A stretch of 5,865 nucleotides of DNA from Elusimicrobiota bacterium (lineage in GTDB: Bacteria; Elusimicrobiota; Elusimicrobia; UBA1565; UBA9628), in assembly GCA_016194625.1 (NCBI GenBank), contig JACQBB010000438.1, forward strand, positions 1 to 5,865, in the 5' to 3' direction. The notes under the pieces were generated by a model. That model was given only the letters and a program-made list of their open reading frames with translations, did no database searches and was not told where the DNA came from. How positions within the stretch are numbered: position 1 is the first letter of the stretch; every line of letters starts with the position of its first letter. This document shows, piece after piece, positions 1 to 5,068 of this stretch. Both the position numbers and the translations under genes were made by a program.

Positions 1-277
1 ACAGCTTCTGGCGCTGCTTGTAGGCGTTGACGCGGAAGCGCGCGACGTCGCCGGCCTGGAACGAGAAGTCGCACTCGCCCTTCTCCTCGAACACGCGCTT
101 CGCGCGCGGGCTGGCCACCTGCATCAGCATCTGCTCGACCTCGGCCGGCGAGATCGCGTCCGGCGCGGCCTGGATCAGGTCGCCGTCCACGCGGATGTAC
201 GCCGGGCCGCCGGCGCGCACGTGGAGGTCGCTGCCGTGCTTGTTGACGAGCGTCTGGAGGAGCTCTTGGAGGGTCAT
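1..277 (-). CDS. pilT: Type IV pilus retraction ATPase PilT, N-terminal part (cut by window edge)
   Basis: The 92 complete codons visible encode the N-terminal domain of a PilT-type secretion ATPase. PilT is the cytoplasmic hexameric motor that depolymerises type IV pili during twitching motility. The protein opens MTLQELLQTLVNKHGSDLHV; the GSDLH motif near residue 15-19 is characteristic of PilT, and the following IRVDGDLI, a stretch rich in acidic and Gln residues, and DFSFQAGDVARFRVNAYKQR near residues 70-90 match the PAS-like N-terminal domain of the family. The Walker A and B motifs and the C-terminal helices lie outside the window, so PilT cannot be cleanly separated from the paralogue PilU. 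The ATG at 277 overlaps the ftsZ stop as ATGA. It has a GAGGAA ribosome site at 284-289, six bases upstream and inside the last ftsZ codons, so translation is probably coupled to ftsZ. The family call is firm; the exact paralogue is less sure. Confidence 0.9.
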   Translation of the reverse strand, partial: MTLQELLQTLVNKHGSDLHVRAGGPAYIRVDGDLIQAAPDAISPAEVEQMLMQVASPRAKRVFEEKGECDFSFQAGDVARFRVNAYKQRQKL

Positions 278-1416
278 TTCAGTTTCCTCACTTTGAAGCG
301 CATGAACGCGGGCTTGGTCCAGCGGTCGGGCTCGTTGAGGCTCTGCAGGAGCTTCGCGTCCGAAGGCTCGTTCGCGTCGGGCGCCTCGCGCCCCGCGCGA
401 GCGAGCTGAGACCCGGGCCGCAGGCCGGCGCGGAAGCCGCCGCGCGCGCGGCGCAGCGGGATGCCGGTGGCGATGACGGTGACGCGGATCGTGTCGCCCA
501 GGCTCTCGTCGTACAGCTGGCCCATCTTGAAGTTCACGTCGGGGCTCACGGTGCCGTGGATCAGCGCCATGACCTCCTCGATCTCGGAGGTCAGCAGCGT
601 GGACTTGCGGCCCGCGATGTTGACGATCAGGCCCTTCGCGCCGTCGATGACCTCGTTCTCCAGCAGCGGCGAGGTCATCGCCTCCTTGGCGGCGGCCATC
701 GCGCGGCCGGGGCCGCTGGACTCGCCGATGCCGATCAGCGCCTCGCCGGCGTTGGTCATGATCGCGCGCAGGTCGCTCATGTCGAGGTTGATGTCGCCGA
801 GCGTGGTGATCAGCGTCGAGATCGACTGCACGCCGCGGCGCAGGACGTCGTCGGCGAGCCGGAAGGCCTGGTCGTGCGTGGTGTTCTGGTCGATCACGTC
901 GAACAGGCGCTGGTTCGGGATGACGAGCAGGGTGTCCACGCTCTGGCGCATCTCGGAGATCCCCTGCTCGGCGATCGACGCGCGGCGCAGGCCCTCGAAC
1001 TCGAACGGCTTCGTGACGATGCCGACGGTCAGCGAGCCCAGCTCCTTGGCCAGGCGCGCGACCACGGGAGCGCCGCCGGTGCCGGTGCCGCCGCCCATGC
1101 CGGTGGTGACGAAGACCATGTCCGCGCCGCGCAGGACCTCGCGCAGCTGCTCCTCGCTCTCCAGCGCGGCGGCCTTGCCGCGCGACGAGTCGCCGCCCAC
1201 TCCCAGGCCCTTCGTCAGCGTCTCGCCCAGCTGGACGCACACGTGCGCCTGGCAGCGGCGCAGGACCTGCGCGTCGGAGTTCGCGGCGATCAGCTCCACG
1301 CCCTCCAGGCCGGCCTCCACCATGCGGTTGATCGCGTTGCAGCCGGCGCCGCCCACGCCGAGCACCTTGATGACGGCGCGCTTCTCGTCGATCTCTTCCG
1401 ACAGCTGGATGCGCAT
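274..1416 (-). CDS. ftsZ: Cell division GTPase FtsZ
   Basis: FtsZ is the tubulin-like GTPase that polymerises into the cytokinetic ring. The 380 residues contain the whole family signature: GVGGAGCNA (20-28) and AANSDAQ (44-50) at the nucleotide pocket, the tubulin-type G-box GGGTGTG (108-114), and IPNQRL (166-171). The T7 synergy loop has N210, D212 and D215 in NLDMSD, the residues that complete the GTPase site of the neighbouring subunit. The core closes with ESLGDTIRVTVIATG (304-318). A short Arg/Gly/Ala-rich linker (about 319-360) leads to the tail peptide TKPAFMR (367-373), which matches the conserved PAFLR-type site that binds FtsA, followed by a basic end (RFKVRKLK). The ATG at 1416 immediately follows the ftsA stop, with GAGGAA at 1426-1431 nine bases upstream. 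Small departures from the usual consensus are NQRL for NDRL and TGTGGAP for TGTGAAP. Length and motifs indicate a full functional protein. Confidence 0.98.
   Translation of the reverse strand: MRIQLSEEIDEKRAVIKVLGVGGAGCNAINRMVEAGLEGVELIAANSDAQVLRRCQAHVCVQLGETLTKGLGVGGDSSRGKAAALESEEQLREVLRGADMVFVTTGMGGGTGTGGAPVVARLAKELGSLTVGIVTKPFEFEGLRRASIAEQGISEMRQSVDTLLVIPNQRLFDVIDQNTTHDQAFRLADDVLRRGVQSISTLITTLGDINLDMSDLRAIMTNAGEALIGIGESSGPGRAMAAAKEAMTSPLLENEVIDGAKGLIVNIAGRKSTLLTSEIEEVMALIHGTVSPDVNFKMGQLYDESLGDTIRVTVIATGIPLRRARGGFRAGLRPGSQLARAGREAPDANEPSDAKLLQSLNEPDRWTKPAFMRFKVRKLK
284..289 (-). promoter_or_regulatory. pilT ribosome binding site inside ftsZ
   Basis: GAGGAA lies six bases before the pilT ATG and inside the last codons of ftsZ (encoding part of VRKLK). 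It supports the ATG at 277 as the true start and coupled translation of ftsZ and pilT. Confidence 0.65.
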
Positions 1417-2673
1417 CTAGAAGAGTTCCTCGAGGAACTGGGTCGCCTTGCGCATCCACATCGGGCGCTTGCGCTGGACGACGCGGGAGTTGACGCCGCC
1501 CCAGCGCGGCGAGGTCGAGTACTGGAGCAGGCCGAGCGCCGTCGAGTACGCCGGCGACAGCCACGCCTCGTCGGCCTGGACCAGGTCCGGGTGCGGGACG
1601 CCGCGGCGCACCGGGATGCCCAGGATCTGGGTCGCCGCGTCCACGGTGCCGCGCATCAGCGAGCCGCCGCCCGTGAGGATCGCCCCGCCGGGCGCGATCA
1701 CGTCGGAATAGGAGGAGTTCTGCAGGTCCTCCAGGACCACCGAGAAGATCTCCTCGACGCGCGGCAGGATGATGCCCATCATCATGCTGGTCTTGATCGT
1801 CATCGGCGTGCGGCCGTCGATGCCGTGGCAGTCGATGTCGGCGTCGCCGTTGAGCAGCGACGGGTGCGCGATGCCGTGCTCCATCTTGATGCGCTCGGCG
1901 GTCGCGATCGAGGTCTTCAGGCCGACCGCCAGGTCGCGCGTGATGAAGTCCGCGCCGATCGGCAGCTCCTTCGAGTACTTGATCGTCCCCTCGCTGTACA
2001 CGCCGATCGACAGCGACTGGCCGCCCAGGTCGATCAGGACCGAGCCGAGCTCCTTCTCCTCGGGCGTGACCAGCGTCTCGCCGGCGGCGAGCAGGCCGTA
2101 CACCGGCTCGACGACCTCGAAGCCCGCCTGCGCGACGGTCTTCACGATGTTGTTGAGGTGCGCGCTCGACGCGGTGATCACGTGCACGTCCACCTCGAGC
2201 AGCGACGCCTCCATGCCGACGGGGTTGGGCACGCCGCGCTGGCGGTCCAGCGAGAAGCCCTGCGGCACGACGTGCAGGATCTCGCGGTCGGACGAGAGCG
2301 GGATCGCGCGCGTGCTGGCGACGACCGCGTCCACGTCGGCGGCCGTGATCTCGCGGTCGGTGCGCGCGATGTTGTAGGCGCCGTGGTTGTTGAAGGACTG
2401 CAGGTGGGAGCCGCGCACGCCCAGCCAGACGGAGGAGACGGTCGCCTTCGCCTGCGCCTCGGCGTCCTCGACCGCGCGCGTCACCGCGGCGGCGGCCTCG
2501 GTCATGTTGATGACGACGCCGCCCTTGAGGCCGCGGCACGCGACGCTGGAGCCGGCCAGAACCTTCACGGCCCCGGTCGCGGCGTCGGGCGTCCCGATCA
2601 GGCAGGTGACCCGCCCGCTGCCGATGTCCAGGCCCGCGACGAGCTCGGGTCCGGTCCTGCGCATGCGCTTCAT
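1417..2673 (-). CDS. ftsA: Cell division actin-like protein FtsA
   Basis: FtsA is an actin/Hsp70-fold ATP-binding protein that tethers FtsZ filaments to the membrane and recruits later division proteins. At 418 residues it has the normal family length. Visible parts are the phosphate-1 motif GLDIGSG (14-20), the FtsA-specific 1C subdomain (about 85-165, with DREIT 106-110 and EILHVVPQGFSLD 131-143), a phosphate-2 region IDLGGQSLSIGVY (214-226), and the adenosine motif GGAILTGGGSLMRG (329-342). The C-terminus, MRKATQFLEELF, is a typical amphipathic membrane-targeting helix. The phosphate-2 motif is unusual: it reads GGQSL where many FtsA proteins have GGGTT, so nucleotide contacts may differ. 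The ATG at 2673 is one base after the ftsQ stop and has GGAGG at 2685-2689, 11 bases upstream; a second ATG three codons later is possible but lacks better support. The gene abuts ftsZ, as is usual for this pair. Confidence 0.97.
   Translation of the reverse strand: MKRMRRTGPELVAGLDIGSGRVTCLIGTPDAATGAVKVLAGSSVACRGLKGGVVINMTEAAAAVTRAVEDAEAQAKATVSSVWLGVRGSHLQSFNNHGAYNIARTDREITAADVDAVVASTRAIPLSSDREILHVVPQGFSLDRQRGVPNPVGMEASLLEVDVHVITASSAHLNNIVKTVAQAGFEVVEPVYGLLAAGETLVTPEEKELGSVLIDLGGQSLSIGVYSEGTIKYSKELPIGADFITRDLAVGLKTSIATAERIKMEHGIAHPSLLNGDADIDCHGIDGRTPMTIKTSMMMGIILPRVEEIFSVVLEDLQNSSYSDVIAPGGAILTGGGSLMRGTVDAATQILGIPVRRGVPHPDLVQADEAWLSPAYSTALGLLQYSTSPRWGGVNSRVVQRKRPMWMRKATQFLEELF
1424..1439. repeat. 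Perfect 16-bp palindrome at the ftsA/ftsZ junction containing the ftsZ ribosome site
   Basis: AGTTCCTCGAGGAACT is a perfect inverted repeat. In the mRNA it can fold as a 6-bp stem (AGUUCC/GGAACU) with a UCGA loop. It encodes the FLEEL part of the FtsA membrane helix and also contains the GAGGAA Shine-Dalgarno sequence of ftsZ (1426-1431), nine bases before the ftsZ ATG. Pairing would hide GGAA unless ribosomes finishing ftsA open the stem. A role in translational coupling is inference; the symmetry and the overlap are seen directly. Confidence 0.55.
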
Positions 2674-2674
2674 A

Positions 2675-3505
2675 TCAGTTCAGTCCTCCGCGGACTCCCG
2701 CCGTCTTCAGCCCCAGCGGCTTGAGCAGGACCTTGCCGTCCTCGAACCAGCGCAGGTCCGCCGTGAACGCGCCGGGCTCCTTGGAGCGCGCGTCCTTGAG
2801 CGCCTCGGCCAGGCGCGAGAGCTTCTCCTTCGTCCAGTCGAGGCGGCCCCACGCGACCGTCGTGCCGTCCTGCAGGCGCGCCTCCCAGCCGTCCTCCGCC
2901 GAGAGCCAGGCCATCTGCGCCAGCGGCGCCGGCATCGCGCCGGCCGCGGTCAGCGCGGGCCACTCGCGCGCGAGCGCGCGGCGGTCCGCCTCGGGCGCGT
3001 CGCCGACGTCGGCGGACGGTCCCGCGAAGCGGTACACGCCCTCGGGCGCGGCGAACACGGAGCCGTCGGCGCCGAGCACGCCCGCGGGACGGCCGCGGCG
3101 CAGCGCCGGCGCCACGCCGCTCTTCAGTGTCAGCGTCAGCGTCGAGCGCTTCTCGCCCCACGGGCGGCGCACGCCCACGTCGGCGACGCACGGGAAGCGG
3201 CGCGCGATCTCCGCGGCCTTCTCGCCGGCGGTGCCGGGGACGGAGTCGGCGGCGGCCTGCGCCAGCGAGAGCATCGGCTCGTCGAGGCCCGCGACGACCG
3301 CGGCCTCGGGTCCGGCGGCGGCGACGGACGGGAGCGCGACGCGGACCTTCGCCAGCGTGACGGCCGCGTTCTTCAACGCCGCGACGGCGACGGCGCCGAG
3401 CAGGGCGACCGCGGCGGCGGCGCCGGCCAGCTTGGCCCGGCGGGCGCGCTCCTGCGGGCGCGCGACGACGCGGTAGCGGCGGCGGGAGGAGGGGCGCTTA
3501 TTCAC
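2675..3505 (-). CDS. ftsQ: Cell division protein FtsQ (DivIB family)
   Basis: FtsQ is a bitopic membrane protein of the division complex that connects FtsB/FtsL to the rest of the divisome. The 276 residues show the expected plan. A very basic cytoplasmic tail (1-25) is followed by one hydrophobic helix (about 26-45), then an extracytoplasmic POTRA-like region (about 50-130) ending FPCVADVGVRRPWGEKRSTL and a strand-rich FtsQ domain. The C-terminal signatures are GVLGADGSVF (142-151), RLQDGTTVAWG (210-220) and ADLRWFEDGKVLLKP (249-263), equivalent to the family's vDLRy..g pattern. Sequence conservation is low, as is normal for this family, so the call rests on topology, motifs and position before ftsA. 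The start is GTG at 3505, eight bases inside murB, chosen because a GAGG site lies at 3513-3516, seven bases upstream, and because it retains the basic tail. The composition is strongly Ala/Arg-biased, as expected at this GC. Confidence 0.9.
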   Translation of the reverse strand: MNKRPSSRRRYRVVARPQERARRAKLAGAAAAVALLGAVAVAALKNAAVTLAKVRVALPSVAAAGPEAAVVAGLDEPMLSLAQAAADSVPGTAGEKAAEIARRFPCVADVGVRRPWGEKRSTLTLTLKSGVAPALRRGRPAGVLGADGSVFAAPEGVYRFAGPSADVGDAPEADRRALAREWPALTAAGAMPAPLAQMAWLSAEDGWEARLQDGTTVAWGRLDWTKEKLSRLAEALKDARSKEPGAFTADLRWFEDGKVLLKPLGLKTAGVRGGLN

Positions 3506-4397
3506 CGACGACCCTCATCTCGAGCTCGAGTCCCACGCCGAATGTCGCGCGGGCTCGCTCGCGGATGAGGTCGACGAGAGCGAGGACATCGGAGGCCTTG
3601 GCCCCGGCGAAGTTCTCGATGAAGTTGGCGTGCATCGGGGAGACGCGGGCGCCGCCGACGGCGTGGCCCTTGAGTCCCATCTGCTCGATCATCTGAGCGG
3701 CGAAGCGGCCCGGCGGGTTCTTGAAGGTGGATCCCACGTTATAGGTATGGATCGGCTGAGTCTGGAGCCGCTTCTGCTGATAGCGCGCGACGACGGCCAT
3801 TATATCACCTTTGTCCCCGGGCTTCAACTGAAGCAGGCACGACAGCGCGATCAGGCCGTCCAGAGGCCCATGCCGGTACGCGAACGCGAGCTCGGGCTTG
3901 GTCAGCCGGCGCAACTCCGCGGTCTTCGGGTCGGCCGCGACGATCTCCAGCGTCAGCGGGCCGATCTCGCCGTCGCGCGTGCCCGCGTTCATCGCGAGCG
4001 CGCCGCCGACCGTGCCCGGCACGCCGACGATCGGCTCGAGGCCCGATAGGCCCTTCTCCGCGCACGCGACGACGAGCTGCGGCACGCGCACCGCCGCGCC
4101 CGAGCGCGCGCGGTCGCCGCCGGGGAACTCGACGCGCTCGAACTCTCCGTCGAGCTTGAGCACGATGCCGCGCACGCCGCGGTCGCGCACAAGCAGGTTC
4201 GAGCCCCAGCCCAGCGCGAACAGCGGCCGGTCCAGCTCGCGCGCCGCGCGCAGGACGGCGAGGACCTCGGCGGGCGTGCCGGCCGGGACGAACGCGTCGG
4301 CGGGGCCGCCGATCTTGAAGGTGGTGAACGGCGCGAGGGGCTCGTCGAAGCGCGCGCGGGGGCAGGCCCTCTTCAGCGCGTCTCGCCAATCGCTCAT
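3498..4397 (-). CDS. murB: UDP-N-acetylenolpyruvoylglucosamine reductase MurB
   Basis: MurB is the FAD-dependent cytoplasmic enzyme that uses NADPH to reduce UDP-GlcNAc-enolpyruvate to UDP-MurNAc, the second step of peptidoglycan precursor synthesis. The 299-residue length fits the compact type II form. FAD-binding motifs are TTFKIGGPA (25-33), LGWGSNLLVRDRG (62-74) and GLSGLEPIVGVPGTVGGALAMNAG (116-139). GSTFKNP (222-228) carries the catalytic Ser223 that protonates the intermediate, and the C-terminus GLELEMRVVG supplies the conserved acidic position. The YR pair (174-175) is kept, but the usual YRxSxF pattern reads YRHGPL. The ATG at 4397 has AGGAG at 4402-4406, only four bases upstream. 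This is the first gene of the leftward operon and overlaps ftsQ by eight bases. Codon use becomes less GC-strict in roughly the last third of the gene (CTT, TTG, AAA, GGT, GAT, ATA, TAT, GGA), where an internal promoter lies. Confidence 0.97.
   Translation of the reverse strand: MSDWRDALKRACPRARFDEPLAPFTTFKIGGPADAFVPAGTPAEVLAVLRAARELDRPLFALGWGSNLLVRDRGVRGIVLKLDGEFERVEFPGGDRARSGAAVRVPQLVVACAEKGLSGLEPIVGVPGTVGGALAMNAGTRDGEIGPLTLEIVAADPKTAELRRLTKPELAFAYRHGPLDGLIALSCLLQLKPGDKGDIMAVVARYQQKRLQTQPIHTYNVGSTFKNPPGRFAAQMIEQMGLKGHAVGGARVSPMHANFIENFAGAKASDVLALVDLIRERARATFGVGLELEMRVVGE
3513..3516 (-). promoter_or_regulatory. Ribosome binding site supporting the ftsQ GTG start
   Basis: GAGG lies seven bases before the GTG at 3505, within the codons for the last residues of MurB (MRVVGE). 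It supports the eight-base overlap of murB and ftsQ and a translationally coupled start. Confidence 0.55.
3799..3827 (-). promoter_or_regulatory. Predicted internal sigma70-type promoter inside murB
   Basis: On the minus strand this site reads TTGAAG at 3827-3822 (four of six matches to the -35 consensus), then exactly 17 bases, then TATAAT at 3804-3799 (a perfect -10). The -10 is preceded by TGA, giving the extended -10 motif TGnTATAAT. A start would be expected near 3792, about 290 bases upstream of the ftsQ GTG. The promoter faces ftsQ-ftsA-ftsZ-pilT, so it could supply the division genes independently of the murB start signals. This parallels the known placement of Escherichia coli ftsQAZ promoters inside the upstream ddlB gene. 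The overlapping MurB codons encode LKPGDKGDIM, so the AT-rich bases are partly chosen at synonymous positions. No transcript data are available; this is a prediction from consensus. Confidence 0.6.
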
Positions 4398-4435
4398 CGT
4401 TCTCCTTTTTTACCAATTAATGATAGGATGCCGCC
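4398..4435. promoter_or_regulatory. Divergent AT-rich intergenic region between murB and the rhomboid-like gene
   Basis: These 38 bases are the only non-coding gap longer than one base in the window, and much richer in A and T than the flanks. For murB there is a possible -10, TATCAT (minus strand 4425-4420, five of six matches), about 22 bases before the start codon, but no convincing -35 at the right distance, and AGGAG at 4402-4406. For the plus-strand gene there is AGGA at 4425-4428, seven bases before the ATG. Any plus-strand promoter would have to extend into murB. The two ribosome-site and promoter elements nearly touch, so the two units may compete for polymerase. No terminator is seen. 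Confidence 0.4.
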
Positions 4436-5068
4436 ATGGACGGCGCCTGGGTCGACAAGCTGGAGCGGCGCTTCGGCTTCCTCGCGGCTCCCGGTCTGCC
4501 GACCTTCGTCGTCGGCATGACCGCGGTCGTCGCCGTGCTGCGCGAGCTGAAGCCCGAGTTCGCGGCGCTGCTCACCCTGGATCCCGCCGGGCTCGCCTCG
4601 GGCCAGGCCTGGCGCGCGGTCTCCTTCCTGCTCGTCCCCCCGCCGGTCGGCTCGCTGTGGCTGGTGTTCTGGCTCCTGATGGAGTACGCGGTCCTGAACG
4701 CGCTCGAGGCCTCGTGGGGCGAGTTCAAGCTCACCGTCTTCGTCGCGCTCGGCGTGCTGGCGACCGGCCTGGGCGCGATCGGCGTCGGCGCGGAGTTCGG
4801 CAACTCGGTGCTGGTGCTCGCCGCGTTCCTGGCGTTCGCGCGGCTGATGCCCGACCGCGAGGTGCTGGTGATGTTCGTGCTCCCGGTGAAGCTGCGCTGG
4901 CTGGCCGCCCTGTCCGGCGTTTGGGCCGCCGTCGAGTTCCTCACCGTGCCGCTGCCCGGCAAGGTCCAGCTCGCGGCGGGACTGGCGCCCTACCTCCTCT
5001 TCTTCGGTCCCGGCCACTGGCGGGACCTGCGCTTCGCCTGGCGCCGCTGGAGGAACGGGCTGCCGTGA
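4436..5068 (+). CDS. Rhomboid-like integral membrane protein, probably non-catalytic
   Basis: The 210 residues form about six hydrophobic helices (roughly 20-35, 74-90, 98-117, 122-137, 143-170, 176-191). Rhomboid/Derlin-type landmarks are GQAWRAVSFLLVPP (56-69, the WR motif after the first helix), LEASWGEFK (90-98, matching LE..WG), and FLAFARLMPDREVLVMFVLPVKLRWLA (131-157 in parts), which resembles the LFP...L.FFIPIK.KWL stretch of rhomboid-like bacterial membrane proteins. The catalytic GxSG serine motif is not convincing: the nearest sequence is GNSV at 122-125. The only His (194) lies after the last helix rather than inside it, so a Ser-His dyad seems absent and proteolysis unlikely. The ATG at 4436 has AGGA seven bases upstream. 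It is divergent from murB and overlaps the next gene by GTGA, suggesting that the two act together. The fold call is moderate; the function is unknown. Confidence 0.75.
   Translation: MDGAWVDKLERRFGFLAAPGLPTFVVGMTAVVAVLRELKPEFAALLTLDPAGLASGQAWRAVSFLLVPPPVGSLWLVFWLLMEYAVLNALEASWGEFKLTVFVALGVLATGLGAIGVGAEFGNSVLVLAAFLAFARLMPDREVLVMFVLPVKLRWLAALSGVWAAVEFLTVPLPGKVQLAAGLAPYLLFFGPGHWRDLRFAWRRWRNGLP
5049..5054 (+). promoter_or_regulatory. Ribosome binding site deciding the GTG start of the secreted-protein gene
   Basis: GGAGGA sits ten bases before the GTG at 5065, within the final codons of the rhomboid-like gene. It favours this GTG, and the start is also required to give a complete signal peptide. 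Confidence 0.6.

Follow-up and report, generated by a model that had tools for sequence, protein, structure and literature searches.

Base-level conservation points to a promoter within murB that would serve ftsQ, ftsA and ftsZ in Elusimicrobiota

The window, which is the whole 5,865-nucleotide stretch of Elusimicrobiota DNA analysed here, carries murB followed on the same strand by ftsQ, ftsA, ftsZ and a pilT-like gene. The genes and the signals at the murB-ftsQ junction are listed below.

3498..4397, minus strand: murB (UDP-N-acetylmuramate dehydrogenase), the host gene of the element described below (Pfam MurB_C and FAD_binding_4; NCBIfam TIGR00179)
3503..3516, minus strand: ftsQ start codon GTG (3505-3503) with its probable ribosome-binding site GAGGG (3516-3512), both within the last part of murB (read from the sequence)
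2675..3505, minus strand: ftsQ, the first gene downstream (Pfam FtsQ_DivIB_C)
1417..2673, minus strand: ftsA (Pfam)
274..1416, minus strand: ftsZ (Pfam Tubulin and FtsZ_C)
2..277, minus strand: pilT-like gene, truncated at the window edge (NCBIfam pilT_fam, 4.7e-20, below the cut-off; PDB PilT chains)

The GTG start of ftsQ overlaps the murB stop codon, and no Pfam match was found for the first 92 residues of the pilT-like product, the part that lies in the window. A simple terminator scan of the window returned no sites, a result that says little because shuffled sequences gave 1.6; by gene order and this weak scan, the fts genes lie downstream with no terminator-like site found in between. 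Facing murB is a divergent gene (4436-5068, plus strand), with 38 bases (4398-4435) between the two starts, whose 210-residue product looks hydrophobic and gave no Pfam or NCBIfam match.

Within the murB frame, the minus strand from 3827 to 3799 reads TTGAAG, then a spacer of 17 bases, then TATAAT; a TG occupies the extended -10 position. The whole element takes up murB codons 191-200 on the coding strand of that gene, which is the cistron upstream of the fts genes and shares their strand. Its parts are as follows, with counts referring to a set of 42 related murB genes defined below.

3822..3827, minus strand: -35 element TTGAAG, murB codons 191-192 (TTG AAG)
3805..3821, minus strand: 17-base spacer, identical in length in 42/42 genes
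3810..3810, minus strand: A at -18, the wobble base of codon 196, A in 41/42
3806..3807, minus strand: TG of the extended -10, where T is the wobble base of codon 197 and G the first base of codon 198, 42/42
3799..3804, minus strand: -10 element TATAAT, formed by the end of GAT, then ATA, then the AT of ATG

Judged as a sigma-70-type extended -10 promoter, the window sequence matches TATAAT at six of six positions, has TG ahead of the -10 and places the -35 at a spacing of 17, within the range of 16-18 bases. GC content around the element (3740-3859) is 0.58, compared with 0.60-0.70 in adjacent segments and 0.73-0.85 further out; the dip is broad and spans the 3' half of murB, and another dip (0.60) lies at the murB 5' end.

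The original prediction had described this minus-strand sequence as a near match to the promoter consensus that was unlikely to have arisen by chance, and on both counts it was borne out. A promoter scan of the window found the element as the sole site with 10 of 12 matches. Sites with at least 9 of 12 matches numbered two, against 0.2 in shuffled sequences, and TGNTATAAT with no more than one mismatch occurred once, against 0.07. When murB was recoded synonymously with the window's own codon usage, TATAAT appeared in 179 of 20,000 trials, and none of the 20,000 yielded the complete element; the probability of these forms arising by chance at the four decisive codons was 2e-7. Across murB, ftsQ, ftsA and ftsZ of the window, none of the 63 Ile codons except that of the element is ATA, and over the same murB-ftsZ interval its TTG is one of 3 among 140 Leu codons, its GAT one of 3 among 69 Asp codons and its GGT one of 2 among 145 Gly codons. 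A chance match was rejected as very unlikely on the shuffles, the synonymous recoding and the TGNTATAAT count.

Of 340 genomes examined in the phylum, 315 gave a MurB match, and codons were read in the loci fetched among these. A total of 164 murB loci were read, L044 and L021 being dropped because their contigs break off on one side of the site or the other; merging of sequences identical around the site gave 121 distinct murB genes, the window included. The window and the 41 relatives with at least 50% protein identity to its MurB make up the set of 42 genes. The strict form of the element was defined as TTG, TG and a -10 matching at 5 or more of 6 positions; the looser form was defined as a -35 matching at 4 or more of 6, TG and TAnnnT.

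TTG-17-TGnTATA[A/C]T was present at the homologous codons in 42/42 genes of at least 50% identity, with TATAAT as the -10 in 38/42 and TATACT in 4/42. The -35 begins with TTG in all 42, although TTG accounts for 15% of Leu codons, and the hexamer is mostly TTGAAG or TTGAAA; the exception L129 reads TTGCGG and matches at only 3 of 6 positions. Positions -35 to -33, -15 to -9 and -7 are invariant (42/42), -32 is A in 41/42, and -8 is either A (38 genes) or C (4 genes). The spacer bases of these genes are largely variable, the exceptions being -26, -18 and -17. The residue at codon 197 can be V, G, A, D or R, yet the codon always ends in T. The outcome named beforehand as speaking against a promoter was that the -10 and -35 bases would drift freely at synonymous sites among close relatives, and this comparison found the element kept in 42/42. 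Outside the set, the strict form was present in 12 of 79 distinct genes; by identity band, it was found in 8/12 genes at 45-50% and in 4/67 below 45%. In one complete genome (CP096137.1; L019 and L133), murB is split into two frames past the element, which may be real or an assembly error.

Pairwise codon identity was compared with each genome's codon usage over 294 columns of murB. Codons 191, 197, 198, 196 and 199 ranked 1, 2, 4, 7 and 9 of 294 by excess identity. Scan rank by itself is not proof, since codons 49, 202 and 264, in neither hexamer, ranked 3, 5 and 6; codon 202 lies at the predicted transcription start. The unusually uniform codon choice at codons 49 and 264 may be chance or may mark another signal. 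In a ranking by improbable codon use, ATA at codon 199 came 1st of 287, followed in 2nd place by codon 298 (GGT, where the ftsQ GTG overlaps murB), which serves as a control, and codon 295 (AGG, in the likely ftsQ ribosome-binding site) came 12th. For codons 191, 197, 198 and 199 together, the joint log10 P, given the codon usage of each genome, was -74.6 over 19 representatives of less than 70% identity, a figure that assumes independent rows and so overstates. Other Leu columns, such as codons 189 and 211, are scrambled to approximately random codon choice, indicating that many synonymous sites are near saturation.

The rows without the strict form included a distant group of 29; the scan took in 23 of them and omitted the other 6, which branch separately and lack the element. 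Among these 23 genes, from a distant and mostly AT-rich clade, the strict form was found in 0/23, TG in 22/23 and the looser site in 18/23, and 12 of the 18 looser sites read TATTTT or TATTCT. The same murB codons ranked 1, 2, 4, 5 and 6 of 243 in the scan of the 23 rows. In four genes of this clade codon 199 encodes Ser, and AGT or AGC is used, so that the A at -11 is retained. In a MurB tree, the clade containing the window comprises 44 rows with the strict element in 44/44, and the element label needs 6 changes compared with about 40 when labels are shuffled. Forty MurB genes from outside the phylum, mostly Planctomycetota or Actinobacteria, were also compared, L062 ending before the site; TATA[A/C]T was found at the site in 0/39 readable genes, and one Bacillus gene (L058) has TATAGT there and lacks TG.

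An account by protein constraint or codon choice alone would hold that the enzyme needs Leu-Lys and Asp-Ile-Met at these places, or that rare codons here slow translation. Leu191, Asp198 and Ile199 never vary within the set of 42 and rare codons do cluster at the element, as this account expects. However, the codons used are exclusively those compatible with the promoter, the residue at codon 197 changes while its last base is fixed, and the Ser199 genes of the distant clade keep the first A of the codon; slow translation would fix neither the spacing nor the TG. The account was rejected on the codon scans and is extremely unlikely. Bases are kept where the protein code is free, which argues for a selected switch and not a chance match.

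The sequence AAAGGTGATATAATG can also be read as a Shine-Dalgarno sequence and ATG for a shortened MurB consisting of the C-terminal domain, and in the window AGG does stand at the proper distance ahead of an in-frame ATG. In the 42 genes, however, the ATG is present in only 30 (ATC in 8, CTC in 4), whereas TATA[A/C]T is present in all, and AGG is in place in 11. An internal translation start would also leave the TG and the TTG at its fixed distance unexplained. This reading, lacking a conserved start codon and Shine-Dalgarno sequence, was rejected as scarcely credible.

The layout seen in murB was compared with that of promoters upstream of tmRNA, for which 24 of 25 loci were readable. The exact TTG-17-TGnTATA[A/C]T was found in 19/24 of these upstream regions, 5-10 bases before the RNA, and TG with a -10 matching at five or more of six positions in 22/24; of the misses, L222 lacks TG and L225 lacks any such site. 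The identity of layout may be taken as an indirect pointer to the primary sigma factor. The tmRNA promoters differ from the murB element in that they stand ahead of an RNA gene, that their commonest -35 is TTGCCG (9/22) and that they seldom have A at -18. That base is A in 41/42 murB genes, against 4/22 tmRNA promoters and 1/8 other perfect sites, and is not accounted for by the promoter consensus; contact of the polymerase with the spacer is one possible role. The extra A is also the point in favour of a binding site for a dedicated regulator, a division repressor or activator, that resembles a promoter by accident. Yet the remaining fixed wobble bases are those of the -35, the TG and the -10 at 17-base spacing, just as in the tmRNA promoters, and a regulator site of this kind is very improbable.

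The pattern TTGA-16-TGNTATAAT was searched for in the whole genomes of 26 clade members and gave 36 sites, 25 of which were the murB site, while the reversed control gave 0 occurrences in the 26 genomes. G187, whose murB has TATACT, gave no match. Eight of the 11 non-murB sites were inspected by eye in translations, and each lay no more than about 120 bases ahead of a plausible gene start; the genes that follow include a rimP-like gene (twice), a dps-like gene and a TetR-like gene. On the murB strand, the murB site was the only one to pass a filter of 9 of 12 matches and TG in 34/34 loci (window included; two are second copies). By these genome-wide and locus scans, therefore, the murB site ranks with the closest matches to the promoter consensus that these genomes contain.

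Two further arrangements were observed by eye in related loci. In L252 and L263, a perfect TTGA-16-TGnTATAAT near position 1500 is followed by a short leader with a T-run and an apparent rimP, and the leader is possibly that of an attenuated nusA operon. In L018 (near 4979) and L108 (near 1464), TATAGT lies a few bases ahead of the apparent murB start, so close that murB there would be nearly leaderless.

The spacing from the -10 and the base make-up of the site give the following predicted features.

3791..3792, minus strand: predicted transcription start, C followed by a purine
3506..3791, minus strand: predicted leader of about 286 bases, made of murB 3' coding sequence

Position 3791 is a purine in 42/42 genes, is preceded by C in 37/42 and is the best candidate by base make-up. 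The original prediction had placed the start near 3792, with which this estimate agrees, and had aimed the promoter at ftsQ, ftsA, ftsZ and pilT, all of which do begin downstream on the same strand. Its suggestion that the leader might itself be regulatory gained no support: mean excess codon identity was 0.052 over codons 203-290, in the leader, compared with 0.068 over codons 1-185, and the Rfam search of the leader gave no match at the gathering threshold. A regulatory RNA leader was rejected because of this lack of extra base-level conservation and of an Rfam match.

In 79 of the 121 genes, ftsA lies downstream on the same strand (within 2,136 bases past the murB frame), and 47 of these 79 have the strict element. 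No ftsA was found in 17 genes with at least 2.9 kb seen, and the strict element is present in 0/17; among them, L069 has the looser form and L162 has TATAAT without TG. These counts suggest that the element and the fts gene order go together, but the comparison comprised 2 supported independent pairs only, with which a formal test could not reach significance. Three distinct relatives in a small clade (L075, L088 and L089) have ftsA 681-786 bases downstream and no such element, which shows that the promoter is dispensable for this gene order. In L147 and L165, where ftsA is further off, a ddl-like gene was seen by eye between murB and ftsQ.

These neighbourhoods also bear on the proposal that the promoter is real but yields, in place of the ftsQAZ message, mainly a short RNA from the 3' end of murB, or else reflects pervasive initiation. 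Some bacterial internal starts do yield small RNAs, which counts in its favour. On the other side, the weak terminator scan found no terminator-like site (0 against 1.6 expected), the leader has neither an Rfam match nor excess conservation, and the strict element is missing from all 17 genes for which no ftsA was found nearby. A product of this kind is quite unlikely.

Taken on the sequence evidence, it is very probable that murB of Elusimicrobiota holds a genuine housekeeping-sigma promoter, kept by selection, that feeds ftsQ-ftsA-ftsZ; the promoter interpretation first offered is supported, with the element retained throughout the close set and its direction and target standing. RNA polymerase carrying a primary (sigma-70-type) sigma factor would recognize the -35 and extended -10 inside the murB frame. 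The transcript would begin near 3791 and cross the last third of murB into ftsQ, ftsA, ftsZ and perhaps pilT. Its first 286 bases or so would be murB sequence without a complete murB frame, and ftsQ would be translated from its own GAGGG site. Promoter selection would fix those murB bases that the protein code leaves free. With such an internal start, division proteins could be made apart from transcription entering at the murB start, and the cell would presumably have need of that supply.

A bolder version is doubtful. It holds that division in the phylum was ancestrally, and still is mainly, driven from the murB promoter, which would have become fixed inside the enzyme gene before the deep lineages split; that selection on it is so strong as to dictate MurB codons and even residues; and that the A at -18 is a dedicated contact, for polymerase or a regulator, making the promoter a controlled division switch where a strong constitutive start would otherwise be assumed.

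Internal promoters of division clusters are already known, and the murB case joins them with unusually deep conservation. In E. coli, promoters of ftsQ are located in ddlB. As far as the E. coli cluster is covered by the source used here, the arrangement is alike in having a promoter inside the upstream cistron on the same strand, and unlike in that the host gene here is murB, the phylum is another one and base-level conservation is shown clade-wide. The source text describes at least three promoters of Escherichia coli ftsZ within ftsA (PMC3762067). For Bacillus mycoides, the same text places the main ftsZ start inside the ftsA coding sequence, confirmed by a construct in B. subtilis, and several ftsQ cDNA ends inside the upstream murB (PMC3762067). 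Those transcript ends resemble the start predicted in murB here; unlike it, they carry no promoter assignment and no claim of conserved bases in the portion of the report drawn upon (PMC3762067). In the Burkholderia cenocepacia dcw operon, according to the section consulted, assays for internal promoters between ddl and ftsA gave no activity under the conditions tested (PMC7761207). Going by that section, internal division-cluster promoters seem absent there, unlike the murB case. None of the papers listed in our literature search, which covered few subscription papers, dealt with promoters of Elusimicrobia, with their start sites or with how their ftsZ is transcribed.

Transcript maps are the usual basis for calling internal promoters, a good many of which may be noise. 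Here, selection marks an internal promoter through bases fixed in coding sequence amid scrambled synonymous sites, an example of regulatory DNA limiting the codons of an enzyme gene. For Elusimicrobiota, a phylum known here mainly from metagenome assemblies, the layout TTG-17-TGnTATA[A/C]T would serve as a native promoter layout, and the element in murB may offer a handle on what drives the division genes.
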